Source: Capitulum mitella (Eukaryota > Arthropoda > Thecostraca > Pollicipedomorpha > Pollicipedidae). Taken from it: a stretch of 64,000 nt of DNA. Made by a program: the position numbers and the translations under genes. The DNA lies in assembly GCA_030062745.1 (NCBI GenBank), contig CP099853.1, positions 1,364,001 to 1,428,000 on the forward strand, written 5' to 3'. Below the pieces are notes generated by a model. That model was not told the DNA's origin. It saw only the letters and a program-made list of their open reading frames with translations, and ran no database searches. Of the stretch, positions 4,921-64,000 are shown piece by piece (position 1 is the stretch's first letter; each line of letters starts with the position of its first letter).

Positions 4921-5061
4921 GAGCGCGTTCGGCATTTTTTTAGTGCGTTTTAGGGCATGGGAACGAAGCCGTGTGCGGCCCCTACCCCTGTTCATGCAAT
5001 GTGCCGTTCTTGCGGCAGTCGCCGCCTCTTTCACGCGGCTGTACTGTTTTCTTGACTGCCT

Positions 5062-5300
5062 GCTGATCCAAACTTCGGCGACACTGCTGTGGCTGTCTCC
5101 TGATCCAAACCTTGGCCCCGCTCCTGTGACTGCCGCCTGATCCAGATCTGGGCACCGCCCCTGTGACTGCTGCCTGATCCAGACCTGGGCACCGCTCCTG
5201 TGACTGCTGCCTGATCCAGACCTGGGCACCGCTCCTGTGACTGCTACCTGACCCAGACATGGGCACCGCTCCTGTGACTGCCAGTGCTGCCTGATCCAGC
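5062..5300. repeat. 37-bp minisatellite
   Basis: The unit contains CCTGTGACTGCTGCCTGATC followed by CAGACCTGGGCACCGCT. Copies start at 5123, 5160, 5197, 5234 and 5271, exactly 37 bp apart, and more diverged copies lie upstream from about 5062. No CDS is supported here. Confidence 0.9.
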
Positions 5301-6679
5301 CCTCTTCACCGATCTGTGATGTTGCCGTTCCTGTTTCCCAGCGGCTCAGTCGCTGAATCTATCCCGGTTTTGCGGTTGATGGCCCCATGGGACAGTGGCG
5401 GATAGGAGTCTCAGACTTACGGCCCTTGCAGGTCAGTAGTGCCTGTGGCCAAAACACTGCGTCTAAGACCACGAGCAAAGCGTCTCCAAAACCACTTCCA
5501 TGGCACAGACATATTTTAAGTGACTTAACGTGAACTAGTGCGCACCATCACATACCTGATGTTACCTCTGAAATTGATTTTGGGTCAATGGTCTTCAGAA
5601 AGGTGTACGAAGCTGCGCCTATGTGAAAGACAATACTGGAATGGAAATACTACAGTGTATCCAGTTTGTTACCCAATCTTCTTCTTTAGTAGTCTCTGAT
5701 GCCTTTCACTAGTCCTTAACTTTGGGACTGTGTAGCCATGAAAGGGCAGATGCATCGCGCCACTGTGCCCAATATTGTGTCTTGGGCCGAATGTACCTGA
5801 AATGTTCATTTTCCTATGCCTGCCAGCAGGGTATATTGGGCCCAACACTGAGCACCCGACACTGGCCTGTCGACTGGGTTTGACGTTCACCAGCACTGAC
5901 ACCTCTGATGTCTTTCGTGCCCATGCAAATTCTCCGCCCCCTGCATAAATAATTAGATCCAGAACATTAGCTTCGAATTCAACTGAAGTTGGCGTCCCGT
6001 TTCGCACCTAACAGTGTGATGGCTATGTGTTGTGTTGCTTCATGTGATGGCTAACGAGGGTCATGATCATTCAATCCCTTGAGGATGAAGAGGAGATATA
6101 ATGAATAGGCTACACGGCATCACTAAAAAATTAAGTGTAGATCAAACTGTAGATGTACATGTAGATCAAACTGCTTGACTTTGGAAAGTGAAGTGGCCTA
6201 AATCCGATGAGTTTTTTTTTGGGGGGGGGGGATTAGGGCGTATTCTCAAAATGGCACCACCCGAGATTTTTCAAAAAACTAGGCCTATGGATGTAGGGCG
6301 GCGAAAAACCAAAATGGCCCCTTATCCATCCAAATGGTCCTTGAACTTTGAAAAAAGGCTACTCTGGGGTGTGAAAAGCATGCTGAGGTTTTAAAATTCC
6401 CTTGAGAGGAACAATTTGAGCCTGAGTAGCCCGCACGGGTCTGTCGAAATGAAGTAATATTAAAATAGGGCCTGGGGTGCTTCCGATCTGTCCAAAAGTC
6501 CCTGGTCGATGAAAGCCGGTTGTAAGCTAGTCGAATAGCCCATGGTCAAGGATTGCTGATCTTGAAGAGATCCCTAGCTTGCACAGGACTCCTGGCGTTT
6601 CAGAAGGACTTCGGGCTTTCAAAACGGCCCCAGCTAAGCTTTTGAAAGAGGCAATGCCTTTAAAACTGTTTCTGAGCCT
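5301..6679. other. Intergenic sequence with T/G homopolymer run
   Basis: No gene is recognised. A T-run followed by a G-run lies near 6212-6230, and 6480-6670 has the same loose CTTTCAAAA/CCC texture as 2440-2720. Confidence 0.4.
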
Positions 6680-7892
6680 TTAACCCTATTTCCGGCAGGG
6701 GGAGGCTGAATCCGCCCCCTCGGGTTTTCTGGTTGCCAGTTCCAGGATTTTTGACGTAGCTTCGCGAAACTTGGTCACTTTTCCTAGCTATTCTTTCTTC
6801 GTACCGTGACAAAATTTCAAAATTCTGTTCTGCTCAGGGGCGGAGCCAGGCAACGTTTTTGGGAGGACCTCAGGCCATTTTTGGCCCTGTTCAGGGTAAA
6901 AGGAAAATGACTGCCAACACTAGCGTTTTTAAGATAGAAATTTTAAATGGACGTATAGCTAAATGGCAGGGCAACGTGCAAACACAATTTTTTCCATCTG
7001 AGGTCCCTTTACAAGGCCAAGTCAAGGTCAAAAGTCAAAATTTGCTTTTATAGTAACAATTTCGGCGCCATTTCCTTAAATGCCAAACCCGAAATACATG
7101 TGACGTATAAGGGTGCCCTCTACTTGTGTATCAAGTTTTAGCCTGATATTAGGTCGGGCCACAGAGCTGTGACCTACAATGTCAGCGCACATACCCTATA
7201 TCACAATAGCCGTAAAATGGAATTATTGAAATAGAATGAATTCAGATGATTGAAAAGGTTTACAGATAATATTAAATGCACACGAGATCATTCCAAGTGA
7301 CTCCAAGGTCCATGGAGGTCATTTAAGGTCAAAGGTCACGAGTTGATCTCACGAACATATGGCCATGGCAGTTCCACTTTTTTTCATTTCCCTGGCACCG
7401 CCTGTGCTGACATCTTACAAACATTGTCATGCAATTTGTGCTTTTTTAGCATACCATGGCTAGCAGAAGACCAAAAAGTGTTTTTGCCTTTTTTGTTCAT
7501 CGAGTTGTTAAAAAACTAATCCTCCCGTTTTTAAACTCTGTAAACGCCTATGAGTTTCCTCAAAATTTCAAAAGTTTGTACAAATTTGTAAAAGTCCCAT
7601 CTATAATCTCTCGATTCATGCCAATTTCATCGAAATCGGTTCGTAAACAACGGAGTTATAAAAAGCCCAAAAGTACTCCCATTCTGACGTTTTTGCCACC
7701 CTATATCCACCCCTTTCAAAATTTTGAAAAATTTATTTTTTCGAAGTGTAGTTTATGTCATGGCAAATCGATTGCCGTTTGTTGCGATGAAATCAAATGT
7801 GTAGTTCTTGAGATCTCAGGGGGGCCGAATCCGCCACCTCGCCCCCTGCCGGGGATCGACCTTACCGTCTAGCCCTCCGGGAACAGGGTTAA
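6680..7892 (+). mobile_element. piggyBac-type non-autonomous element, family 1, copy A (complete)
   Basis: The element is flanked by TTAA at 6680-6683 and 7889-7892 and spans 6684-7888 (1205 bp). The left end reads CCCTATTTCCGG; the right end, reverse-complemented, reads CCCTGTTCCCGG. Next to each terminus is a G-tract palindrome with core GGCTGAATCC or GGCGGATTCGG, starting 12 bp in on the left but 40 bp in on the right. Copy B (44731-45949) aligns along its whole length by eye. TTAA target sites, CCC termini and a 28-bp left/right spacing difference are piggyBac hallmarks. No transposase is present: a 138-residue frame at 7456-7872 is not conserved in copy B, where an early TAA breaks it. 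Confidence 0.8.
7326..7338 (+). promoter_or_regulatory. DR1 nuclear-receptor-like motif inside copy A
   Basis: Two perfect AGGTCA half-sites are separated by one A, with a third AGGTCA about 10 bp upstream and a TCAAGGTCA at 7022-7030. The DR1 is identical in copy B at 45389-45401. The motif is visible; binding by an HNF4/RXR-type or FTZ-F1/ERR-type receptor is inference only. Confidence 0.4.
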
Positions 7893-8694
7893 AAGAACCC
7901 TGAGTTTTCAAGATGGTTGCGTGTCTCGTCTGAACCCCTGCGTGAAAATCCTGGGTACGCCAATGAAGAGCTGACGTTCTTTAACAAACTACTGCGATTC
8001 CTCCGACATATGAAGAACACCAAACCTTAACGTAACATTTAATTCGGAATTGCACACTAGTACATAAAAAAAATAGTTGTTTGATCAATTAAGGTTGACA
8101 GTGTTGTTGTTTTTCGCATTCATTTTGTTTTTTATTTGTTCCCATTTATTGTTTCCTTGGTAGTAGGTACATTTGTCCTTACAAAGCAGGCCACTATAGC
8201 ATGACACGAATTTGGGTGGAGTCGCTTTCCTTTCTCATTCGGTACTATTGCGTTAAAATGCATGCATTATATTGCTTCCTTCACTTTGCACGGTCTTGCC
8301 TTTCCTATTGCGCCTTGAAACTTCTGCTGGGAAATGAACACCGAAAAAACAAGGACCAAGTGGACGTTAAGAATTGGGCGCATATCATCCTTCTATCCTT
8401 TTCCAGTCTCGTCAGATCTGTCTCAATGAACTAGGCTAATATCTGACAATCCCGACAAACCCAGCACTGTGAGCACCGCCTCTCTCGTTTCCTGGCTACG
8501 CTGCTGCTACTCCGACCTTGAAAGTCAGCTGTCTTCAAAAGGCGTGCGCGCGACGGTTCTAACGCAGATCGTTCGTGACTTGCCGGCCGGCTTGGGTGCG
8601 GCGGCCCGGTTCTGGTTCTCTGACGCTAAATCCGGAAATTCCGATCCAAATTGTGCGCTGCATTTGACTTGCTGCAGGCATACATTCCTTGACA
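7893..8694. other. 5' flank and probable 5' UTR of the elongase gene
   Basis: No separate gene is seen. The last 250 bp before the start codon become GC-rich. A possible 3' splice site (GACTTGCTGCAG) ends at 8677, so an upstream non-coding exon may exist. The transcription start is not identifiable. Confidence 0.4.
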
Positions 8695-12000: not shown

Positions 12001-15000
12001 GCCGGAGGCAGTCGGAACTGGGCAGATGTCTGCTTTTTCTTCTTGGTGTTGTTGCCGTAGGCAGTGTAGTTGACACCAGAGCAGCTTTTTTAGCGGGTTT
12101 AATTCACTTGGCATGTCGTTGAAATAGCAAACTGACGTCTAGATTGACGTCTAGCGACATCGTTGTCGATGCCCTGTGAATATTGTAGCGCTGGGCAATG
12201 TATTGTCATTGGTCGTTCGGTTTTAGCCCTTTTGCTAAATTTCAGTGCGTAATGAACAATTGACTGTACCACTTTAAGCGACCACTTTGACAATAACTAA
12301 TCCACGGGCTTGGAATCAGCGATGCTCGCCTTGTAGCTGTGTAACGATGTGCTCATGTATCTGAAACTGAACGCGGCACTGAGCTCAGGATTCTCAGTTG
12401 AAGCCATCGATTTCTAGTAAAATCGCCTGATGTATCGACCGGCTACGGCGGCGGCGACTCTTCTGGGAATTGTGGACAGCGTCAGACGGCGGTCGATCGC
12501 CGTTAAATACGTTTGTCAAGCGGCCATCTGGGCAGCCATTCATAATTGATTTTGGGTATCGGGAGTTGAATTAAGCCAGCTGCTGAGCCAGACTGTGGAA
12601 AGATATCCAGTGTGATATCTGCTCCGTGACTCGGATACCCAGTTCAGGCGACTTTGCTCGGGAAATTGGTATTTCTGAACGTAATCGGTTGAGACATTTT
12701 TTCAGTCAGAATGAATTTGCGGAGGCTTTCGTGTAAGAGAAGGTGCCTTCTTGAAAGATGAGCAGCTTCGACTGGCGCGGACCCCACCCTCTTCCCATCG
12801 AGCACCGTGACGAACCAGATTACGAAGTTCGCTGATAAGGCTGTAATTTAACCGCGCCGCTATTATCGGATGCTTTTTATAGTGGTGTGCTCATCAGCGG
12901 GCGCTGGACATCGATTGCCGTCCCGGTCTTATCACAAAAGCCAGCCGGGGCGCGCGGCGAGTGCCGGCGTGGCCCGATGGAGACCCGTGAATAGTGCAAC
13001 TCAGCATTTCACTGCTGCATGGGAGACACGGGCCCATTTGGCATGTGTTTACGGTCATGGTGGTCGGAACACTCGAATTCAAGCCTGGCTGCAGCTCATG
13101 GTCTTTCACGCGTGTTCTCTCGAAATAGCTACATTTCAAGACGGAGACTGGTAAGATTGTGTGGGCATTGGTGTGGGTTAAAAAGTTTGCTTCCTTTGAG
13201 AGGACTTACCCTGTCTGAAACGCCGGGGGACATGGGGGACATGTTGACACGTAGGGAACATGTAGACATCACGCTTCGCGAGAAAGCAACACGATGTTTC
13301 CATGCGTACCACGAAACAGCTTATGGAAACTATGCGGCGTTAAATTACTTCGGGAAATGAAAGAGGCTTAATGACAGGATCATGCAGTTCAGTTTAGTAA
13401 GTGTACCGCAGGTCGTTGGATTGTTAAAGAGTGATTAAATCTACGGTCGTCTTCAGTCATAACGTTTGCGTCAAAACGTACCGGCCGAAAACGTTTCCTG
13501 AGTTTCTCAGGAGTTCTTCCGTCGCTGCCGCCCGAGGCGAAATAAGGAGGACGTATCTTACTGTCGGATGTGACGCAACTATCCATGTTGTGTGGCGTCA
13601 TGTGCTGTCCAGATGTGGTTCGCACGTGGGATCAAACAAAAACCCGACCACCTGAAACACCCTGCCCCACCCCACCCCCACCCGCCGCCCAGCACCCCCG
13701 CGATAAATATGAAAAGCTGCGTCGTTGGGCGGGAAGGGTTGCATGTGTTTGAGGCTTGTAGCTCGTAAACTTACATTTGTTTTAGGTTTTGTCATTGGTG
13801 ACGACGTCCTCATACCAATTTTGAAATCGCCCCGTTGTCTTTGTTCTATGCGTTGCCTATCCATTGTTTGTTCATTAAGTGGTTCAGGAATGCAACTAGC
13901 GAGGTGTCGACTATGTGTTACGTCGTAGCGCAGTTTTGGCATCAGCTTCCGATGTCACTCAGCCGACCGGTGCGCTCTGGTGCTGAGCTGGACTTCGCTT
14001 AGTGACTGAATAGATTTCTCCAGTGGCGTCCCGCTGGTCCTCGTATGGTCGACCGCAGTATGCAGAACAAAGGTAACGAATCTTTTACGCCAGACATGAA
14101 CCAGTCACTTCTAGACGTGTGCCGGGATCCCGATGGAATGCGGGTTGTCGTCGTTTTCCATCCGATTCCCAGTTCACCATGAAACTGTTTCCTCACGTAG
14201 GAGGTTTTGCTCTAACAGCACACGGCCTTTCCGAGATGACGTGATGACGTACTCAGGTCTGCGAAGGTTTCAACGCAGAACGGAGTTAAACGTGCGCTCG
14301 TTCGCGGTCAGTGCATATGTCTGGTCACAGCACCGTCGACAGGACGTTATTCTGGTGCCGGTAGCGATTTTTACCCCACGTTTCCGCATCACGTGCGCTG
14401 CTGCCCAGGAAACCCGGCGAACCCGCCCCCTGCCAGTAAGCGGGGTTTCTGACGGGTTTCGGTTCCCAAACGGACCGCGTATGGCGTCTGTGAACCGCCG
14501 CCGAGGCTGGATCAGCCCTTCTGGTCCGAATCCGGTCCGAATCTGGTCCGAATGTGGTCCAGATCTGGTCGCCACGGCCTACAGGGGCTCCGCGGCACCT
14601 TGCCAGGGACCAACGGCCGGCGGCGGCCGCGGCTGCGGGCTTCTCGTTCGAGGGCGTTGTTCCGGTTTGGTTTTCTCGGTTGAGGGACGGCGTTCCTGTT
14701 CGGAGTTCCGCCACTGGAGGGCGCCGGTCCGGTTTGGTTTTCTCGGTTGAGGGACGGCGTTCCTGTTCGGAGTTCCGCCACTGGAGGGCGCCGGTCCGGT
14801 TTGGTTTTCTCGGTTGAGGGACGGCGTTCCTGTTCGGAGTTCCGCCACTGGAGCGCTGGTCTGGTTTGGTTTTCTCGGTTGAGGGACGGCGTTCCTGTTC
14901 GGAGTTCCGCCACTGGAGGGCGCTGGTCCGGTCGGGAGTGTCTCGATGGGGAACGATGCGCCTGATCGAGCGCTGCCGGTCCGACCGAAGGTACGGCTGG

Positions 15001-18000
15001 CGCCCGAACGGACGGCGAAACTGGTCAGGAGTAGGACATCGTGCCTTTCCGCCGGTTCTCGGAAAGCAGCCGCGCGGCCTGGTTTGGACCGCGGATTTCC
15101 GGCGGTGCGTGACGTCCTCGCTCCAGGCGGACCGGCGTGGTGATCAGTCACTACGATCAGCGAAATCGGCAGTTACATTCTGCACTTGTAACCGAGGGAC
15201 AGTTTCGAAGTGAGGACGCCGTTCTTAAGGTTGTTTTTGCGTACCGGCCATTTAGGTATCGCGAAGAGCACTTGTTTGTACAGCGACCCATGACAGTTGT
15301 CCTCGCGCATTACTCGAATAATAGCCGACTGGAGGCGTGCTAAACGGATCATTACGTCGCCACGCGGTGCCCAGATGTGCCCGTTCACACCTGGGGCGGG
15401 TGTCTCGGAAACCGTTTACGGCTCGTTTGCCCGGCTCCCCGTCGGCCGTCCTTGACCTCGCCGAGGCGCGCACCACCTCCCGCCAGGTGCGTCCAGGACG
15501 ACCTGCGGACGGCTGGCCTGCCCCCCCCCCCGCTGCTTCGCAGGTCAGCGCCGGGCGAGCGTATCTGCGAATCTGCGAATACGCAGATATACGAATAGTT
15601 GTGCGAATCTGCGAATACGCTGGCGCCGCACGGCGACAGGTTTCAGCGCCCGGCCGTGTGGCACGCAAGTGTCGGGCCGTGCCGGCGGCCTCCGGGACTT
15701 CTCTGCTGAGCTGGAGTTGGACTCAGCTCAGAGGGGCGGAGCGGCAACGTACTGCACCGTCCTCTGGTCGCTGGCCGGGCCTCTGTTCTCCGTCCTCTGG
15801 CTGCTGGCCTCTGGTCCCCGGCCGCTGGCCGCTGACCGCTGGCCTCTGGTCGCTGATCGCTGGCCTCTGGTCGCTGTCCGCTGGCCTCTGGTCGCTGTCC
15901 GCTGGCCTCTGGTCGCTGGCTGTTGCCTCTGGTCGCTGTCCGCTGGCCTCTGGTCGCCGGTCGCTGTCCGCTGGCCGCTGCCTGTTGGTCGCTGGGCGCT
16001 GGCGTCTGGTCGCTGGTCGCCGTCCGCCGGCCAGTTGATTAGGCGGCGCGCTGGCCGGGCCGATATCGACGCGGCGGCCGGCAGCCGGCGGCCGCTCCGC
16101 TCCTGGAAGCGAGTCGCCTCCTAGATGCCACGCCTCGCCTCGCCTCGCCGGGGTCGATGTGGCGTCGAGCTCGGTGGTCGCCGGGCCGCTGCCGTCGGAC
16201 GGGCACCCGGAACGCCGCCTTGGCGGGACGGAGCGGACCGGAACGCGTCCGGAACAGCCGGGGCCCCGGCCCCAGAGCCTCTGCCAGGGGCAGGACCAGA
16301 ACGGACTGGAGCGTGTCCGGACCCGGCGGGACGTTCCGTGAGGTGTTCCGGTTTGAACGCGCTGCGAGGCCGCCGGATCGGGCGGCAGCGTGCCGGGACG
16401 CGTCCTGTGGCGACCGGACGCGGCAGTGACCGCAGAGACGGGTGTGGGCGGAACGGAGGCGCCTGAGATGGGGAGGGGTCGTGAGGGGCCTGAACCGCTA
16501 TAGGCCCGGGAGGGTACCACTTACGGGACCAGCATCGCGTTGATAAATCATCTCGGTTTGAAGCCTGTTTCTAACGATGCTTAAAAGTGTCGTGGTCGGT
16601 GGCGATCTTGCTTACAAACCTTAACTGGTCAGCTTTCGCTTTTTGCGGCGGCGTCCAGACCCCTTTCCCCCCCCCCCCCGTCTTGCAGCCTGTGCCACGT
16701 TCGCCTGTCGTCAGGCGGGCGCCGCGCCACGTCCGTGTCTCAGACGGGCCGCGTCGCGTTCGTCTCGTGTGCACCGGGACCGTCGTCGGACGCTTTCTCC
16801 GCCGGCGCCCGCAGAGCGAAACCGGGCCGCTCGCCGCCGCCGCCGCCGCCGACGCGCCAACGACAGCCGGCCGGGACGACCGCTCGATTACGTCACAGGG
16901 GGGAGGCACATCCGGGGGCGAGGGGTGGACGCTGATGGATTGTCGCTTGCGAGCCGCCGGCGGCCGCGCCAAGCGCGGGCCGACGACTTGTGTCTCGTTT
17001 TTGCGAATGAGTTTGATTCCAGGTGGCGGTTCGCGATTTCTGGGCATGTGGGTCGTCAGGCCGGTCCTAGAATGGAAACCAGCCTGGGTGATGAAGGAAC
17101 CGTGGAAGAATTGCGATGGCGTCTGTTGCCAGACCAGCTGCGACTCGCTCCTAACTTGCAGCTAAATTGCTCCTTTGTGGTAACTCGTTCCTTGGCCCAG
17201 CGTGTCTTAGGCTGGTTGTTGGATGTGTTTCGCACACCCCGATGTCGGTGTGCGAAATGTCGGTGTGGGTGTCGGTGATGTCGGTGCTGCTAGTTTTGCA
17301 TAGCTCTCGTCGTGCAGTGGCCCAGTAAGATTCATATGGCTCGCCAAGTATGGTTGCTAACCGGCAGTTACGTTCACAGGCATAAGAACGTTTAGGAAGT
17401 TTGTTTTCCCAGGTTTAGGCCTTTTTCATGGACGTCCATAGAGCCAATTTTTTTCAGACCTAGTGTGGTTGCCGCCCTACCAACCCAAAAACCCGCCACG
17501 CGGATGCTGTTTGCACGCAGCTCAAACCCGTGGGAGCGTTGGATGAGTGGTCAAACCCCGTAACCTTTCAGAGTCACAGTTGTTTTCGCATTTGGCATTC
17601 ATCATTTTTCCGACTTCCGAGCACCACTATGGTGACCCAGTCTTAAATCATTCTGGAGCTCTTCTTCGGCCCCGGATGACGGGAGCCCGACTCCAGTGGG
17701 TGGACTTGTATGCGACGGCGGCGGCTCTGAAATAGACGCCCTGGGGGATAGGTCAATCGGCCGGCGCCGACCTGTGACGTCACGACAGACCGGTCGCCAT
17801 GGTTACCGGATGCCGCCACTTTCATTCCTGAGGGTGTGTTGGGTGTGGGTCACCGCTGGCCTGACGCCCAACGCTCATAGAATTCATGTTAAATCTCTGC
17901 AGCTGGTGGTGGGGGGGGGGGGCACGTGTCCTTCCAAAATACTTTCAAGGCCCATCCCTGCTTCCGAGCTATTTTGTTCCATCTAACACGGTTCGCGTGA

Positions 18001-21000
18001 GATTGTCTGGATGAAGTATGCAACGCTGTCCTGCAAAATGTTGACAGAACTCCCGGTATTGTCAAACGCCGGTAACATGCAGCTTCTAAATTATTTCAGT
18101 TGTAAAACAGTGGCGGAACGGGTCATTACTGCTCCTGCTGTCTCCTTGCGTGCCTCTGGGAAGTGCTGGTCGTGCAAAACATCCGCAGCGGCTTTACTGG
18201 GCAACCGTTTGCGATTTCAGATCGGCAAACCATTTGGTTGTGATACTTTACGGCATACTTCTGTAATTTTGCGCGTTTTGTGGCAGCCTTTACTTCTAGC
18301 CAAGCGTAATTTCTAGTCCTTCAAGTGTTTCTAGCAATAATAAGTCGTCGCTTTCTGTACAGTCACTGTTGTGTTTTCCTGGGCTGGGAATGCGACTTAC
18401 AATAATAATGTTACAATCACCGGCGCTGCCCGTGATTGTAATATTGCCTTGCGTCTGGATACAGGACGTGGTTACCCGAACCAGCGGCTGATTCATTTCA
18501 GCTGCCACACAGACCGGCTGCAGGTCTTGGAATTCGTCAGCGTGGTGAGCGTGAACTGTGCGTTATGGGCCGCGGACGGTTTCCATTTGTAATTCGTGCG
18601 CCAGTCGAGCACCGGTTATCTGACGCTGTCGATATTTCGGCAAGCACGTGGTTTGGGATTGCCAGCGACCGTTGCGGGACAGGTGATTTCTGTTCTGAGG
18701 TATGCCGAAATACCTGCGTGATCTCGCCATGGACCGGACATTGGGCTGAATGCGTTATGAACGCGATGGCTTGTCGTGCGGGTGCAGGAACGAGGAACTT
18801 CGCCTCCCACTGTTCTGTTTATTGGGTCGGCGAGATTTTAGAAAAATAATTCCTTCAGAGTCGTTCGTGTTACCACCACCACCATCACGTATACGTATCT
18901 TGTTCTTGAGCTGGAGTTTTTAAAAACGTAGGCGGTATACCACATTGCGCTATATGGTATAGCAGAGCCAGGTAATGGCATACTGTTAATATCGAACCCC
19001 ACGACATGCGCGTCCCAAATCCCCCGTGCTGTGCGAGCCGAGTTCCGTGCGCGAGCTCGATCCTGAGGTCGGGGAGGTCGTATCAGCCGCGGACCGGGGC
19101 GGGGATTCCCTGCTCTTCTGTTTCCGAGATGATAACTGCACGGATCTGGACACAGTGGCCCCGCCAACAATGAACGGAAGCCAGCGCAGGCCGGGTCGGC
19201 TGGACTCCTGTTGGGTGAGGACAGCAAGTAACTTGGGTTTGATTTGTACGGCTGTTGTTATTCCCTGTGTTAATATATCCTTGTTCATTAGAAGACCAGC
19301 TCGACATTGGCGAAAGCCGCGTGTCTGCGAGTTGTCGGCTTGTGGTGGTCTAAGGTTTCTGTCGTTGGCAATGTCCGGCAGCGGTTCCCAGAAGGTCTGC
19401 GATGGGTGATCTGCCGGCGATCGCGGGACGATGTCTGTGTTTGTTGCACCTCGGGCGGTCAGGTCGTCAAGTCCACCTGTGTTTGTTGCACCTCGGGCGG
19501 TCAGGTCGTCAAGTCCACCTGTGTTTGTTGCACCTCGGGCGGTCAGGTCGTCAAGTCCACCTGTGTTTGTTGCACCTCGGGCGGTCAGGTCGTCAAGTCC
19601 ACCTGTGTTTGTTGCACCTCGGGCGGTCAGGTCGTCAAGTCCACCTGTGTTTGTTGCACCTCGGGCGGTCAGGTCGTCAAGTCCACCGGAACAATTTGAA
19701 GGGCGCCGTACGTTGTGGGGCAGGCTAAAGCGCATGGTGCTCTTTCAGTTCGCATTCTTGGAGGGGAACCGGAACCGTCGATGAAGCATAGTTAATGGGT
19801 CTTGAAGACGAATGCCTTCAGCCTGAAATCCGGTTCGCCGATGATATTGACGTTGGGATGAAATATCTTGGACGGAGGGAATTGAACTGATGACAGCCAG
19901 CTATTTTATGGAACGCGTAACCTATTTGGCCTGACGTATGATTCCAATAAACCCCCGAAGTCGGAGTGCGTGATGGCCCGTGTACGACTGCCGCTGCGAG
20001 AAGTATGTGATTCTGCTGGACTCCTCGCTCAGATGATGCACGGCCGTGCTGCTCGGGGACGACTCTGCTACGCTCTGTGACAGTCGAGTCATAAAAACGT
20101 GTTCTGTCGGTGTCGGTCGTCACGTCTCGAGCTCTGAGACCATCCGTCGCTGCTGCCGGCCACTTACGGAACTCGTTCGCCTTTCGCACGAGCTGAGCGC
20201 TCTCCAGAACTGGAGCCTTGAAGCGCACCAGCATGGCCCCGGTATGCCATGGCTCGCGGGAAGAATTGTCGGCAGAACGTCATCGCGTCGGTAGTCATGG
20301 TCGGAACGGTGCGGATCGGCGCGCGGTGTAGAATTCCGAGACGGAAATAAGGGCAGGCAGCAGTGCTGTAGTCACACTCGTCCGCTGTTGCGCTACGCAC
20401 ACTGTATGAACCACAACAGCGACGAAGGCAAAACTTCTGGGTAGGCGTGGACTCCAAGGGGATCTTTTCAGATCGGACGGTAAAAAACGTAGCAGTCTTA
20501 ATAGTTCCTGTAGAATACATACTTCAAGTTTTGGAGACAAAAATGGAAAACTCGGAAAATTGGAAAACTGGTCGAGTGCTAGCCGAGCCGGCTGAACTCG
20601 GGCTGCCCTTCGCTGCCCCCGGCTCCGGGTCAGCAGCCTCCGTGCCGGCCCGGCCACGGCTGGGTCGTCACGACCGCGGCGGACCGCTTGCCACAGACGG
20701 AAATCGCCTCCGACTCCGTCTGGCCGCGGCGGAGCTCGGCAGGCGTCCGCGGCCGCGGCCGCAATGAACGGCGCGGCGAGTCCACGGTACGCAGACGCGT
20801 CCGCTGACGGGGGAGGGGGAGGAAGCAATGGTGGTGTGACACCACGGAGTGCCACCTGATGTCTTTGAGCCCGGGGGGGATGATTCAGCTCTCCGAGTGC
20901 CGGTGGTGGACTTTGGAGCGCAGTGGTGCCGGTGGTTGGCGGTTGGACCCTGCCCCGTTGTGCGACGCCGGTGACTGGGTCCGTGTTGGCGGCTTAGGTC

Positions 21001-44730: not shown

Positions 44731-45949
44731 TTAACCCTGTTCCCGGCAGGGGGGGGGGGCGGAATCCGCCCCCCCTCGGGTTTTTTGCTTGCCAATTCCA
44801 GGCTTTTTAACGCAGCTTCATGAAACTTGATGACTTTTCCTAGATATTCCTTCTACGCGCCGTGACAAAATTTCGAAACTCTTATTTTGCTCAGGGGCGG
44901 AGCCAGGCAACGTTTTTGGGAGGCACCTCAGGCCATTTTTGGCCATGTTGAGGGTAAAAGGAAAATGTCTGCCAAAAACGGAGTTTTTAAGATAGAACTT
45001 AAAACTTTATATGAATGTATAGCTTAATAGTTGGGCAATGTGCATATGTAATTTTGTTTATCTGAAGTCATTTTACAAGGTCAGGTCAAGGTCAAAAGTC
45101 AAAATTTGTTTTTTTGCTATAATTTCGGCGCCGTTTTTTCAAATACCAAACTCGGAATATATATGACGTAAAAGGGTGCCCTCTACTTGTGTACCAAGTT
45201 CTAACTCGATATCAGGTCGGGTCACGGAGCTATGACCTAAAATGTTAGTGCGCGTACCCTATAACGCAAAAGCCAAAAAATGAATTTTTTGGAATAGAGT
45301 GAATTCAATCGATTAAAAACGTTTACAGACACTATTGAATGCACACGAGATCATTCCAGGTGACCCCAAGTTCACTGGAGGTCATTTAAGGTCAAAGGTC
45401 ACAAGTTGATCTGAAGAACGTTTGACCATGGCAGTTCCCCCTTTTTTATGTCCCTGGCACCGCCTATGCTAACATTATACAAACATTGTAATGCGATTTG
45501 TACTTCTTTAGCATAACATGACTAGCAGAAGCTAAAAAAGTGTTTTGGCCTCTTTTGTTCATTCAGTTATTAGAAAACTAATCCCCCTATTTTTGAAACC
45601 CTGTGAACGCCTATGAATTTTCTCAAAATTTCAAATTTGCACACCCATGGTAAAAGCCCTATCCATGATCTTTCGATTGATGCCAGTTTCATCGAAATCG
45701 GTCAATAAACAACGGATTTATAAGAAGTCAAAAAGTACCCCCATTTTGACATTTTTGCCCCCCTGTATCCACAAATTTCAAAAGTTTTAAAATCTCTTTT
45801 TATAAAAATGCAGTTCACGTCACGGCAAATCGATTGCCGTTTGTTGCGATGAAATCGGATAAGTAGTTCTCGAGATCTCAGGGGGGGCCGAATCCGCCCC
45901 CCCTGCCGGGAATCGGCCATACCGTCTAGCCCTCCGGGAATAGGGTTAA
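44731..45949 (+). mobile_element. piggyBac-type non-autonomous element, family 1, copy B (complete)
   Basis: TTAA at 44731-44734 and 45946-45949; element 44735-45945 (1211 bp), same orientation as copy A. Termini are CCCTGTTCCCGG and, on the other strand, CCCTATTCCCGG. The subterminal palindrome here is nearly perfect (GGGGGGCGGA and TCCGCCCCCC around one A). It starts 12 bp from the left terminus and 40 bp from the right. It lies within the mariner transposase reading frame, whose protein context continues on the far side, so the insertion postdates that gene. No transposase is encoded. Confidence 0.85.
45389..45401 (+). promoter_or_regulatory. DR1 nuclear-receptor-like motif inside copy B
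   Basis: AGGTCA-A-AGGTCA, identical to the motif in copy A. A TCAAGGTCA lies at 45086-45094. Function is not shown. Confidence 0.4.
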
Positions 45950-45985: not shown

Positions 45986-46992
45986 GAATATCATGTGTTT
46001 TACAGGTGGTGGAAAGGTGAGAACGAACTTTTCTCGACCGGGCGGCTGTAACATCTCGACGACTTCTGCAGACCACTTCCCACGGATACCTGTCCGTCCT
46101 CATAGACGACGTTTCCCAGTTACCTCTCATTTACGTGACCAAGTCGACCTGATCACGCCTAGTGACTCCGCTGCCCGGTAATGTGCTTACAACATTCGAC
46201 GCATCCAAGATTTTGCGAACAGACAACGACCCACCTTTCAGCGGACGAGACTTCCGCGACCCCTCGATTCGTCTCAGGCCTGGGCAAAGAAAGACCACAC
46301 CAGACGACACCGAAGCGAGGGCAAGCTGAACGTCTTGCTGACCTCAGCCCGGTCACAATCGGATTTCCAGTCGGACCTCGGCTGTTGCTATCGCCAGAAG
46401 ACGGACGTGAGCGTGGGCAACTCTGAGACCGGCCGGTCTTCAGATCTCGTCCCAGGGCGAGGTCAGAGGTCGCTGCTGGCGGCGGGCCGCTAACACTAGC
46501 CGCAGTTACATGGACACCTGAAAAGTTGCCAGATTCCCGGCCTGGTAGGCCAGTAGCCATCCGTGAGGTTCCGTATTGCTTTCGTGTTTCCTTCGCTTGT
46601 TGTTAGGCATGGCTGCTTGAAAAGCGCAGAAGTGGCGAAAGTGACGCAGAAGTTGTGCCTGACTCTGATTTACAGCTCATCCTGCTTCTACGGCCTTGCT
46701 TAGTGATACAGATCACTGGTATCTTGCCGTGAGGTTATTTTGCCAATGTAGGTCAGAATACCCACCCATTTACATTTTTAACGTGTCGGAAATGACAAGT
46801 TCAGACAAAAACTACAGTTCGTGGTAGTACCGTGAGTTCACGTCCCCCTAGTCCGACCCGCGTGTAGCCAGGCGGGTGAAGGCGTGAAGTGACACGCCTT
46901 CTCGCCCGCCCGTCTCGCACGCGTTCTCGCTGCTCAACGCTTTATTCCCGACTGACGAGACGACCCCGCATATCGGTGGTCGAAACCTGACC
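45986..46992. other. Intergenic sequence, nothing recognised
   Basis: Short, moderately GC-rich ORFs on both strands, without recognisable domains. Confidence 0.4.
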
Positions 46993-47304
46993 TGAGCTCG
47001 GGGTCGGCTCCTCAGCCCTGAGATATGAAGCACTGCACTGTTCTGAGCTCGGGGTCGGCTCCTCAGCCCTGAGATATGAAGCACTGCACTGTTCTGAGCT
47101 CGGGGTCGGCTCCTCAGCCCTGAGATATGAAGCACTGCACTGTTCTGAGCTCGGGGTCGGCTCCTCAGCCCTGAGATATGAAGCACTGCACTGTTCTGAG
47201 CTCGGGGTCGGCTCCTCAGCCCTGACATATGAAGCACTGCACTGTTCTGAGCTCGGGGTCGGCTCCTCAGCCCTGACATATGAAGCACTGCACTGTTCTG
47301 AGCG
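46993..47304. repeat. 51-bp minisatellite, six copies plus a partial
   Basis: Units start every 51 bp from 46993 (47044, 47095, 47146, 47197, 47248). They begin TGAGCTCGGGGTCGGCTCCT and contain ATATGAAGCACTGCACTG. Copies differ by single bases. The period is a multiple of 3, so minus-strand 17-residue peptide repeats look like ORFs. Confidence 0.97.
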
Positions 47305-49120
47305 GCGGGGGCGGCTCTGCTCACCAGCAAACAAACGATTCGAACAATAAATGCATACTTCCACGAACAATTATCATACATTCACTTACAAACACCAGAT
47401 ACCAGTACACTCTGTACACAAGAAGCGAAGGAATTGTTTTCCCCTCCCTCATCACTCTTGTTGCCCTTCCAGCTTATCAGCATTCGCCCAATCAGCGCCT
47501 TCGTTGCAAAACCTTTCAGTCTTGTCGAGGCACAGAGGCGTGCAGTTGAAATAGTCAGGACTAGGGTCCGGCATATTTGGGTCTCTAGCGTGCGTTAAAA
47601 CGCGCATTAGACAACAATCAACGTGCATTGTAAGCACATCAATGAGAGCGTCGATTCCATGTACCGCTCAGTAACTATCTTCCGGACCTCTGCAATATCG
47701 ACTGAATACTGGTCTTGACACTCCGCGGCGGGACAGGCAAACGTTACCCTGGCGTCGCCTCTGCAAATACGACCCTCCCGGCTGGCGATCAGGTCACGTG
47801 GTGACTACGTCTGCACCCAGCACTAAATAGCCCGAGGATATGAACACGGGAAAGCATGGAGCAGCGCGTGGGGGTGCCCATGACTGGAACGGTCAGCACA
47901 GCTGCCTCAGGCAGATAACACGGCTGAAAAAGTGAGATCATTGGCTGTGAGGTTTGGTTCAATGGTTTCATGCATTGCCACAATGCATGCATAAACAGCG
48001 TCAGGGTGGCCCATCAAACCTATGCTGGTCAATAACTATTAAGCTCCTATTTTCTCTGGTTCAAAAACGGCAAGTGATTTTCTTTTGAGCTTTGCGTTGC
48101 AGGCTGATTTCAGCATAACGGCCACGAGCATGGATACAACTTGATATGGAAATCACATTTCAGTCTTCATGAATTCAGAAGATCAGTGGCTCACGATGGA
48201 AACTGAAATTCCTATGAAATATAATCTCGCTGCAACCTTTTAAAATATTGCTCAAAAGTATAAAAGTTTGCTCTTGGAATACCAACCACGTTGCGCAGAC
48301 GCTAAATGCACGTAACCGCAAGTGGGAAGTCTTTGGATCAAGCCTGGCACGTGGCAGACTTTTCCTCGACTGGCTCCTACCCAGGAGATGGCAGCAAATG
48401 AGAGGTGTTCTCCTTGTCGCAGGGTGAACGTTGTACCGTCCAGCGCCCGCGGCAATTGGTACACGGGTGTGATCCGTCTTAAAATGATCCTTCGGTCCGG
48501 TGGCATTTGCTGAGGGCTCGGCCTCGCTTCATGTCACCGGAGCAGTCCTCTGATTCACCGGGCCCGAGGAATCGGGATAGCCCTTGTGTGTGCACAAGTG
48601 TCACCTGGGGAGCCTGACAACAAGCGTGTAGTCAAGGCTTTTCCGCAAGGGTGCCGACAAAAATGAAACCTCTGTCGTGTACATGGTGTGTGTGTGTGTG
48701 TGTGTGTGGCTAATTGTCGGAATGCATGCAGCTAACAAGAAAATACCTGGTGGGGCACCAGGAATATTTCCTTTTTTTAATCTGACAGTGCTTGGAACCC
48801 TAAGAGAGCCAATGTGTGACTGTTGATGGACACTCGAGGTACCCGTTTAGCAAATACAGTTTGTATTTACTGTACAAATACGTATATTGAATACCTATAC
48901 AAGTACGTAGACTAAAAGCAACGCTGCAAAGCAAGCGTTGCTGAACTGCAAATAATGCTAGCAAGGGCGTTGTTTTGTGGAAATAACAGGGGGGGAGCCC
49001 GTCAAGCTACCTTCCCCTGAATGTGGGTTTCTCATCAGATTTAGCCCTAGCGTTATTTTGACCGAGAGGAAATTTGTTAGTGTTCAAAAATAATGTTGAA
49101 ATTACGAATAAGAAAGTTAG
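47305..49120. other. Intergenic sequence
   Basis: No gene is recognised. It contains the TG microsatellite below, and near 48919-48942 a 9-bp inverted repeat (AGCAACGCT and AGCGTTGCT). Confidence 0.4.
48686..48708. repeat. (TG)n microsatellite
   Basis: About eleven perfect GT/TG dinucleotides. Confidence 0.95.
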
Positions 49121-51600: not shown

Positions 51601-52032
51601 GTCAGGCTGGCCAGGCGCTGCCAATGAACTGCAGAACACTTGAGGAAATCAGCACATATTACATGTCGTGCACAATACCAAGGCATCTCCTGTTGTTATT
51701 TCAAGCTTGCTTGCATCGTAAACCAGTCATTCGTTCTTTGACGTCAAGATACAACATTGCAGAACCAACTGTAGTTTTGAGCTGCAGTGTTTTAAAAGTT
51801 GGCCAATGTCATCAACCTGGCTGGGAATCTGGCAGCTTTTCAGTGCTTGTGTAAACGCGGCAACTACTCCTGTACCCATGACTTCGGAAGCATTCCTGTA
51901 TGAGGAGGAATGCCCATTCGGCTCCTCTTAAGATTTCGAGAACTACCGGTCCGATCTGATCGCAACAAACGGCAGTCGGTTAGCCATGATGTGAAAGACA
52001 TTGCATACACTCAATTAAAAAAACGACTTTCC

Positions 52033-52215: not shown

Positions 52216-53447
52216 TTAACCCGTCCCCGACTGGGGGGGGGGCAGTTGACTGCCCCCCCCTGAGGTTTTTCTGGGATTGCGAGAGAACCAACAAACACAG
52301 ATTCACGAAACTTTGTGTAGCTTTTGCTCCATCAATTTTACATCTTGTATCAAAATTTTGACCTCAGGTCACGTCAGGTGCCTAACCTAGGTCAGGTCAA
52401 ACAGACCTATGTCAAAAAAAGTTTAGCGCCCTCTAACTTTTTCGCAAAACAAGATATCTCAATAATACTTTCAGGGATTAGTGATCGTGATAGATGCAAC
52501 AAATCTCCTATCTCAGATTTTTCGGAATTTTTCGGGTCATTGACCTAAGGTCAAGCCCATTTTTAAGACATATCGCCATTTTTTTCGGAAATTGACGGAA
52601 CATTCCATAACATTTTTACTGTGGAATGAAGCAGACATCTGGTTACCGTCATTGGGCAAAATATCAGTGACTTCCAGGCATTGACCTGAGGTCAGGTCAC
52701 GAATAACTGTAGTGGGCCAAAATGTACCACCGTCAAAATCGACGATGAATTACTCAGAATGGGTAGAAAATGGCAGAACTAGCGTGCGCAGACGTAATTA
52801 ATACCAGGAACCTCAAAAAGTTTGAAAAAGTAGCATATTTTGGAAATAAACAGGCTCTCGCGAATAAAGCTCCGCCAACTTTGTACATTGACAACTAATA
52901 AATTTTTCCAAAATTTAAGCACGAGAAACCATCACAAGAACGACAAAGATCAATAAAATTGACATAGATTGTCTTTTTTCGCGAAAATAAAGGAACGCCA
53001 AAATTAGTTCCCGTCAATTTGGTACTGCATACGGCCGCGGCGCACACTTGACGGCTGACGGGAGAATTACGGTGTCTTTAACTCAACGTTTCGGCGTATA
53101 TATTGAACAAATCTGGGGGAATTAGACGTGTATCGGCATCCGCGGACATTTACTTGTGCGCTGGTGCCTTTACCTATGCGTTATTAGTCACAGTCCTTGA
53201 GATTCAGGCCATTTCTCGGTCTCATGCAGTCGGCTATGAGAAAACATATATAGGGCGTAAATTGGCTTAAATATTATCTAAAACTAAAAATGAGACCAGT
53301 TTCGAGCTCTACTCGTCACAGGCTTTCCAACGGTATGCTTATTTTTATCGTGCGACCAACCGTTCGCGAGTTAGAGGGGGGGGCAGTCAACTGCCCCCCC
53401 CCCAGTCGCCGGTGTTCGGGACGGACCGACGGTCGTGCGCGGGTTAA
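52216..53447 (+). mobile_element. piggyBac-type non-autonomous element, family 2, copy D (complete)
   Basis: TTAA at 52216-52219 and 53444-53447; element 52220-53443 (1224 bp). Termini are CCCGTCCC and, on the other strand, CCCGCGCA. A long G-tract palindrome (10 G, CAGTTGACTG, 8 C) lies at 52233-52260. Its reverse-complement partner is at 53376-53403. CGACTGGGG begins 8 bp in on the left but 35 bp in on the right, the same asymmetry as family 1. The interior is AT-rich, with four or more AGGTCA/TGACCT clusters, and differs from family 1 apart from the first 100 bp, which is faintly similar. No transposase ORF. Confidence 0.8.
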
Positions 53448-54140
53448 CTGAATGTACATATTGTCTGAAGACCAGGAGTATTTAAGAGCCATTCTTGAAA
53501 ATACTAAACAGTAAAGTGCATTTCTAGGGGAATTGATTTCTGAATTTCGTAGGGGGTGATTACAGTAAGGCCAAAAATGAAAACAACAAAAAGGAGCATT
53601 TTTACTGAACTCCATTGTTCATTGACCGACTTTGGTGCAACTGGCAAGAATTCGAGAGCTGATCGACGGGGCCCTACTCTCTGGCCCACACATTCATAAT
53701 TTTAGCAAAATGCATAGGCGTACACTGAGCTTAGAAAAATGACGTGTGTCTTTTTCGAAAACTGGATTGACGTAAAAAATAATAATTCATTTAGCTTGTA
53801 GAACAATAGGTCATCAACTTGACATGGCCATTTCTTTCCTTAAAGTACGAATCATATCATACTGTTCGCATAACGTTGGCATGGGTGGCACCAGAGACAT
53901 GAAAGAGGGGAGCTACCATGGTCGCATTTCCACCGGGATCAAATATGACATTTGACATCAAATGACCTTAAATTACCTCAGACACAGAAAATATCCTTGG
54001 GTTCATCTCGTAATGTTTTAAACCCTTCCAACCGCTGACGATATTCCTCAATATCCTGTTTATAGCCGTTGTGATAAAGGATACGTGCGCTGACGCTTTA
54101 AATCGAAGCTCCGTAACATGACTTGATATCTAAAATCACG

Positions 54141-59142: not shown

Positions 59143-60030
59143 ATGTTAAGGCTCAAGCTCAGGCTCAGTGATTTCTGCGTGGAAGACTGTGGTGATGTTC
59201 GTGGTGTTAGCGTCAGGAGTGACGGTGCACATAGTGTTAGTGCGAGAGTGGCAAACTATCACGCCAGGCAGTTAGAAATATGCTGTAGTCGCACGGTGAA
59301 GCCCTGGAATTGTTTTTCCAGACTACAAACGCATAAAAGCGACATTTCGCCATCCCCCGCGACAACCGGCGAGAGAGGTTGCGATGCGAAATGACCCTGG
59401 CAGTCGACAGCGTCGTTAAATAACCCAATAACCAGCCATTCACTGTCACCCGTGTTCGGCAGTGACGGGCATCATCGATGCCAATGAATAACGTGGACTG
59501 TGGCACGTTCCATTACACTCAACTGCTTCTGTTCCACCCATTAACAGTCTAACATGGGCCAAAACGAGTATTTCAATGAGGTCGAATAATTCGAACAGCA
59601 GGCAACGGTTCTCGGCGATGTTGTAGCGTATTGAAACTCAAGCAATCCATACGCCCACCACTGTGAATGACTGAGAATTGCGCGATGGCGTCAGCTGCCA
59701 TGGCGACAGCGGATAAGTACTGTCGCCCACGAGCATGGACTGAGTTGTTTCTGGAGCTGAAGTGAATGAGAGCAAGAGCATGAACTGCGTGGACGTTAAA
59801 AAAAAGGAATGCGGAGAAGCACACAACACATTCTTTAGTACATAGGCAAGCAAAAGATCACATGCTGTGGCTCCAGCAAAGCCAATGTCTTCGTACATAT
59901 GGGGATGCCAACAAATTTTTGCCACCTGGAGTTTGGACACAACTTTTTGTTCCGAGAAACAAAGTGCATATCCCAAACCATTACTGCTGCATCACAGCAA
60001 TCTTGCTTCCACAGAGTACCGGGTCATTTG

Positions 60031-60286
60031 TGAGCCTCAGAGTCCCTGACTCCTCTCTTTTGTGAGCCACAAAGTCCCTGACTCCTCTCTTTTGTGAGCC
60101 ACAGAGTCCCTGACTCCTCTCTTTTGTGAGCCACAGAGTCCCTGACTCCTCTCTTTTGTGAGCCACAGAGTCCCTGACTCCTCTCATTTGTGAGCCACAG
60201 AGTCCCTGACTCCTCTCTTTTGTGAGCCACAGAGTCCCTGACTCCTCTCTTTTGTGAGCCACAGAGTCCCTGACTGCTCTCTCCTG
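60031..60286. repeat. 32-bp minisatellite, eight copies, inside the Harbinger pseudogene
   Basis: TGAGCCACAGAGTCCCTGAC recurs every 32 bp from 60031 to 60255, with only a few base changes among copies. It sits between the PGRVHGA and GDSTYP parts of the transposase remnant. The repeat has no stop in any minus frame, so an ORF runs through it while cycling three peptide phases. Confidence 0.97.
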
Positions 60287-60559
60287 GCCGAGTCCTGTGT
60301 GGCGCGACCTCGCGAAACACTTAGTATTCCGGTGGTGCCCGAATGGTTTCAGCACTCGGCGCCATGCACGCGCCCAGGGCAACGTAAACAGGCTGCCACA
60401 AACTGCAGGTCCGGCCCCTCCACACCCAGGATGTTGACGGCCGTCAAATCCTTCCGGCACACTCCGGCCCTTTGGTACCAGCAGCTTGACATATTGTGTG
60501 CCATCGATGCAGCCTACCGGTGAGCACCATGACCAAGGTATTCTCAGTATGGAGGCAGC

Positions 60560-63882: not shown

Positions 63883-64000
63883 TTAACCCTATTCCCGGCA
63901 GGGGAGGGGCTGAATCCGCCCCCCTTCGGGTTTTTTGCTTGCCAATTCCAGGCTTTTTAAAGCAGCTTCACGACACTTGGTGAATGTTCCTAGCTATTCT
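63883..64000 (+). mobile_element. piggyBac-type non-autonomous element, family 1, copy C (cut by window end)
   Basis: TTAA at 63883-63886, then CCCTATTCCCGGCAGG, the subterminal GCTGAATCCGCC palindrome, and TTGCTTGCCAATTCCAGGC, matching the left end of copy B almost exactly. Same orientation as A and B. The rest lies beyond the window. Confidence 0.8.

Follow-up and report, generated by a model that had tools for sequence, protein, structure and literature searches.

The 64-kb window, as we term the whole stretch of DNA analysed here, is part of contig 15 of an assembly of 477 Mb in 16 contigs, taken to be eukaryotic from its size and content. It carries copies of a TTAA-flanked repeat family, F1, that is very probably a non-autonomous element of the piggyBac superfamily, with ends of the type found in Trichoplusia ni piggyBac and moved in trans. 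One 1.2-kb form of F1 is amplified to about ten thousand copies. F1 is a new family of a kind already known; a search of the literature gave no paper on it and no such title among those listed. What makes it of interest is that the T. ni-type geometry is retained with new palindromes while the mover is missing.

T. ni piggyBac is a standard tool. Two families in the window, F1 and a second one, F2, have different palindrome cores in the same two slots, and one of the two families is present at about ten thousand copies. Together they provide natural data on the end positions that a transposase requires and on the bases that may change.

F1 copies in the window

Three copies of F1, termed A, B and C, lie in the window. 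Their features are as follows.

6680-6683, no strand: left-hand TTAA of F1 copy A (target duplication)
6684-7888, plus strand: F1 copy A, non-autonomous element of 1205 bp
6684-6695, plus strand: left terminal repeat of copy A, CCCTATTTCCGG
6698-6719 (element bp 15-36), no strand: left subterminal G-run/C-run palindrome of copy A
7819-7846, no strand: right subterminal palindrome of copy A, starting 43 bp from the right tip
7877-7888, minus strand: right terminal repeat of copy A, CCCTGTTCCCGG
7889-7892, no strand: right-hand TTAA of copy A (target duplication)
44731-45949, plus strand: F1 copy B, 1211 bp (44735-45945), with TTAA on each side
63887-64000, plus strand: F1 copy C, left end only, running off the window end (TTAA at 63883-63886)

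The two TTAA of copy B, which is complete, are at 44731-44734 and 45946-45949, so that both copies for which the original prediction had claimed TTAA on both sides do have it. The terminal repeats of copy A are 12 bp long and differ from each other at 2 positions. The right palindrome is interrupted in copy A and uninterrupted in copy B.

No transposase frame was recognised inside F1. The longest frame in copy A has 138 amino acids, and the longest touching copy B has 142 and extends beyond the copy; these two and four shorter ones, six frames of about 46-141 amino acids in or overlapping copies A and B, matched no Pfam family. Rfam gave no match at 6500-8100, around copy A, phage records gave no match, and no tRNA was found in the 64-kb window.

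The window also has many tandem arrays, whose units measure about 14-67 bp:

336-728, 5016-5311, 14587-14968, 15746-16044, 19393-19728, 46936-47343 and 59992-60311: tandem arrays

Asymmetric ends of F1

The 28-bp asymmetry of the F1 ends is real. In copy A the block CCGGCAGGGGG starts at bp 9 of the left end and at bp 37 of the right end, a shift of 28. The same shift separates the two occurrences of the block ATTCCCGGCAGGGGGG in the F1 majority sequence and those of a 16-bp block in copy B.

The majority sequence was taken from nine aligned copies, namely A, B and the seven best other matches to A (L002-L008), among which L003 is without most of its left end. The nine diverge from it by 6-9%, a figure that does not describe a random sample, since seven of the copies were chosen as the best matches to A. 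A script could measure the shift in 7 of these nine copies and gave 28 for 5 of them; L004 gave 29 and L002 27, the latter because BLAST trimmed the right edge one base short. For the palindrome, the script located the start of the G-run in six of the nine left ends, always at bp 15, and in eight of the nine right ends, where it is bp 43 in seven and, with the same missing base, bp 42 in L002. The 28-bp offset originally reported for the complete copies is thus correct, at bp 15 on the left against bp 43 on the right. The position of the palindrome centre depends on the length of the G-run and ranges over 24-30 in the left ends and 50.5-62.5 in the right ends.

Chance occurrence of shifted blocks was assessed with 1000 dinucleotide shuffles of the two 80-bp ends. 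An equally good shifted block arose in 8 of the 1000 shuffles for copy A and in none of 1000 for each of copy B, the F1 majority sequence and F2. The best block of copy B in this test lies at shift 24, because the left G-run of this copy is longer.

In T. ni piggyBac, according to PMC2532691, the 13-bp and 19-bp repeats stand 3 bp apart at one end and 31 bp apart at the other, in agreement with the spacers and the 28-bp difference given in the original prediction. Passages of the T. ni piggyBac structure paper (PMC7351741) place a dimer of the transposase cysteine-rich domain (CRD) on a left-end palindrome at bp 17-33, with its minor groove centre at about bp 25; they also state that asymmetric ends are needed in cells, and call these ends enigmatic. 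F1 resembles this system in its TTAA target, in its short terminal repeats and in a subterminal palindrome lying 28 bp further in on the right (the left palindrome of T. ni piggyBac being the one described at bp 17-33). It differs in carrying no transposase gene, in its roughly 10,000 copies, in a palindrome made of a G-run and a C-run with arms of variable length, and in a terminal repeat that is directly continuous with the subterminal repeat.

Genome-wide abundance and length

Patterns for the F1 ends with TTAA, allowing up to two mismatches, match 10,069 left ends (4989 + 5080) and 10,790 right ends (5458 + 5332) genome-wide, which bears out the high copy number expected from three copies in the window. 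The reversed patterns of both ends, used as a control at the same tolerance, gave 0 matches. At 1.21 kb for each left end the family would occupy about 12 Mb, or 2.6% of the assembly, an estimate that assumes each end to be a full copy. A genome search with copy A, in which 40 of 11,314 first-look candidates were scored, gave matches on both genome strands and on 15 of the 16 contigs among the 41 listed.

Ends were paired along roughly the first 10.5 Mb of contig 1, which takes in 84 left and 98 right ends out of 100 listed for each side. Of these 84 exact left ends, 59 have an exact right end in the correct orientation within 15 kb, and 56 of the 59 pairs are spaced 1,164-1,238 bp; F1 therefore exists mainly as one short form and not as a spread of deletion products. 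One further left end was paired to an abutting neighbour (-4), its own partner lying, by coordinates, at 1,205 bp. The two longer pairs, of 6,364 and 12,318 bp, may be spurious, since the same 84 left ends also yielded 9 wrong-side pairs, at distances of 0.7-15 kb. Both the 6,364-bp pair (C1:5823368-5829739) and the 12,318-bp pair were considered as long forms of F1 and rejected; none of the listed transposase match places falls inside the 6.4-kb interval.

Insertion sites

Insertion of F1 at TTAA, with a 4-bp target duplication, is supported by counts over the genome and by one empty site. TTAA precedes 4,964 of the 5,502 exact left termini genome-wide (90.2%), and with the empty site described below this upholds the earlier expectation that genome copies would have TTAA duplications in common.

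The copy at L005 sits inside another repeat, F3; the four bases beside it are TTGA at its left end and TCAA at its right end, each one change from TTAA. When its two flanks are joined, the alignment with L066 runs across the junction. In a genome search with the joined flanks (40 of 1,085 first-look candidates scored) 38 of the scored places match them unbroken, and the remaining two are the halves at the home site. A 21-base pattern laid over the empty site matches 136 + 149 places with up to two mismatches, against 0 and 1 for the reversed control. Among the 44 mismatch-free matches, whose membership in F3 is presumed and whose first TT is fixed by the pattern, the empty site reads TTAA in 32, TTTA in 4, TTGA in 3, TTCA in 2, TTAG in 2 and TTAC in 1.

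F3 is itself a further repeat family, known here from the L005 flanks and from L066, with the 1,085 first-look candidates just mentioned and as the host of one F1 insertion. Nesting was also seen in F2 inside an F1 relative, where TTAT flanks both sides.

The F2 family and old fragments

F2 is a second TTAA-flanked non-autonomous family. The window holds one uninterrupted element, with F1-related fragments on either side of it:

52216-53447, plus strand: F2 element (52220-53443) with TTAA on both sides, a different palindrome core and a shift of 27
51916-51995, minus strand: fragment related to F1 positions 1080-1159 (81%)
53843-53968, minus strand: fragment related to F1 positions 645-771 (73%)

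F2 has the palindrome GGGGGGCAGTTGACTGCCCCCC at each end, and a perfect 34-bp block recurs between its ends at a 27-bp shift. The palindromes of F1 and F2 have G-run/C-run arms in common and different cores. The interiors of the two families gave no alignment at E below 0.001. Their left ends are weakly alike: copy B and F2 align in register at 75% over 52 bp (E 0.001), and F1 74-95 aligns with F2 76-97 at 86% over 22 bp (E 0.015). Because of this likeness the shifts of 28 and 27 bp may represent a single inherited layout, and the end layouts of F1 and F2 may go back to one ancestor and not be two independent cases. The arrangement of the two fragments suggests an old F1 relative split by the insertion of F2.

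Families X and Y

A genome search with the piggyBac transposase profile PF13843 gave at least 118 matches (116 of 267 candidates scored). Among 31 piggyBac transposase loci typed by tblastn, 14 belong to a family X (90-100% identity to the X protein) and 15 to a family Y (84-100% to that of Y); the remaining two are L027, with 48% identity to X, and L059, with about 30% to each family. Elements of family X measure about 2.9 kb and have 15-bp terminal repeats, CCCATTAACGCCCAG; those of family Y measure about 2.7 kb and have the ends CCCATTAGTGCCCA and CCCTTTAGTGCCCA. Compared with solved structures, the transposases of both match piggyBat best and T. ni piggyBac second. X and Y are autonomous piggyBat-like families, as at L043 and L039, and their transposases are in better condition than those of T. 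ni type.

Two pairs of places, L017/L039 and L011/L040, seemed to be autonomous parents because F1 or F2 halves flank the transposase gene. They were rejected as such: a wider reading shows whole elements of families Y and X, each bounded by ends of its own kind, nested in F1- or F2-type copies.

T. ni-type transposase sequences

Six loci of T. ni type were read in their gene or flank (L060 with L066, L061, L062, L063, L064 with L067, and L065), and among them T. ni-type transposases are present only as partial sequences. The best structure match of P0003, from L060, is 6x67 (3.2e-26, against 3.9e-6 for piggyBat), and for P0004, from L061, 6x67 is the only match at E <= 0.001. Of the 39 genome matches to P0003 among those listed, 25 have an internal stop and many are short; the weakest may fall outside the T. 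ni-type group. L060 has S aligned at T. ni residue D346, the second of the four residues (D268, D346, D447 and D450) that we take to be catalytic in T. ni piggyBac. A QAGPSQQ-like repeat stands ahead of the cysteine-rich domain at L060.

No case of a T. ni-type transposase tied to F1 was found among the six loci read. The flanks of L060 and L061 showed no TTAACC ends, and the 3' flanks of five T. ni-type places (L062-L066) no F1 ends; matches to F1 or F2 in the flanks of L062, L065 and L066 are of 11-30 bp only (best E 0.004).

L063 and L064 have a stretch that is 73% identical to F2 1020-1152 (about 135 bp, 1e-16). About 460 bp separate it from the T. ni-type gene upstream, whose orientation it shares, and it stops where the right palindrome of F2 begins. 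The two loci, both on C13, are duplicates with 96% identity, and therefore count as one event. Among 40 scored places the 3' flank of the gene and the F2-like stretch occur together only at these two; C14 has the first 236 bp of this flank without the F2-like stretch. No F1 or F2 match was found in 701 bp at the estimated 5' side of the gene. A tie between a T. ni-type transposase and F2 is suggestive only, since it comes from a single event and the 5' side is without an F1 or F2 match.

Nature of the F1 family

Termini in the piggyBac superfamily follow the rule CCY, and the terminus of T. ni piggyBac is CCC. F1 termini start with CC, and not with RR, in keeping with this rule, and have the CCC terminus in common with T. 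ni piggyBac. To judge by its CC...GG tips, the duplication of TTAA and an end geometry of T. ni type, F1 would work like a piggyBac element moved in trans. Its membership in the superfamily is well supported; it is incomplete in that a transposase gene with F1 ends was not seen. We infer from the form of the ends that the mover is probably a transposase of the T. ni type. Supplied in trans, its core would bind the short terminal repeats of F1 and its CRD the subterminal palindromes, the latter as in T. ni piggyBac. F1 would then be cut out through TTAA hairpins, a step likewise carried over from T. ni piggyBac, and would insert at a new TTAA with four bases duplicated.

The original prediction, a non-autonomous piggyBac-type element moved in trans, holds as to the TTAA duplication, the lack of a recognised transposase frame and the end geometry, and is not supported as to a parent with F1 ends. 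A candidate parent would be an autonomous element with CCCTRTTCCCGG ends and the F1 palindromes; none was seen among the transposase places read, where X and Y have different ends.

The transposases of X or Y could have moved F1 if they recognised the tip only. Systems of this kind, piggyBat of Myotis together with X and Y, have a PF13843-type transposase (shown here for X and Y), and frames open across the whole query stand at one X and three Y places. X and Y elements resemble F1 in TTAA and in beginning with CCC beside it, and an X element has inserted into an F2 copy, where TTAA is found on both sides of it and only once at this site in the uninterrupted F2 of the window. However, X and Y ends have just CCC in common with F1 (CCCT at one Y end); their terminal repeats are of 14-15 bp, and a search for a shifted subterminal repeat or asymmetric palindromes at their ends found none (826 and 112 of 1000 shuffles were as good). 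The part of PMC11707139 that deals with piggyBat likewise reports it without the piggyBac pattern of subterminal motifs. We regard movement of F1 by X or Y as unlikely.

The TTAA duplication would also agree with a MITE of Kolobok, the other TTAA-targeting superfamily, and the T2-MITEs of Xenopus, which resemble F1 in being non-autonomous and in their TTAA target, are presumed in a passage of PMC6004289 to be Kolobok MITEs. Kolobok termini, however, are given as 5'-RR...YY-3' in the relevant lines of PMC9587614, whereas F1 starts with CC and ends with GG, and the Kolobok reading is on this ground already disfavoured and very improbable. Spread by segmental duplication, or in the manner of a satellite, would explain why a few F1 copies abut: one TTAA is common to two exact ends, head to tail, at C1:5435283-5435286, and two copies at C11:4247980-4250401 leave room for a single 4-base spacer. 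But the flanks of the tested F1 copies gave no match to one another, the listed matches to copy A are dispersed over strands and contigs as given above, and the copy at L005 has an empty site with a 4-bp duplication. For the copies examined such spread without transposition is refuted, and for the family we give it almost no credence. A piggyBac-superfamily element with T. ni-type ends, moved in trans, is the explanation that we retain.

AGGTCA clusters

F1 and F2 carry clusters of AGGTCA, which we take to be a nuclear-receptor half-site. One such stretch lies in copy A:

7025-7338, plus strand: stretch in which copy A has its five AGGTCA, at positions 342, 487 (reverse), 633, 643 and 650 of the element

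The F1 majority sequence has 9 AGGTCA, against a mean of 0.50 and a maximum of 3 in 300 shuffles. Copy A has 5, copy B 7, F2 9, F2b 6 and L066, an F3-like flank of a T. ni-type gene, 10; the F1 majority sequence, F2 and L066 thus have 9-10 per about 1.2 kb, as against 0.5 in shuffles. Counts are 1 in X and 2 in Y (about 1.6 expected), 2 in L065 and 1 in L062, and the remaining 60.2 kb of the window contain 46. Over the nine aligned F1 copies AGGTCA is intact at 0.68, compared with 0.60 for all 6-mers, a difference that is not convincing as extra conservation.

These clusters raise a separate question, that of how such elements get switched on. It is conceivable, though doubtful, that a T. ni-type lineage was switched on via a host nuclear receptor and in this way spread tens of thousands of receptor sites. 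The layout of the sites consists of direct repeats in F1 and of TGACCTnAGGTCA in F2, and the cluster of the F2 element in the window lies at 52359-52699.
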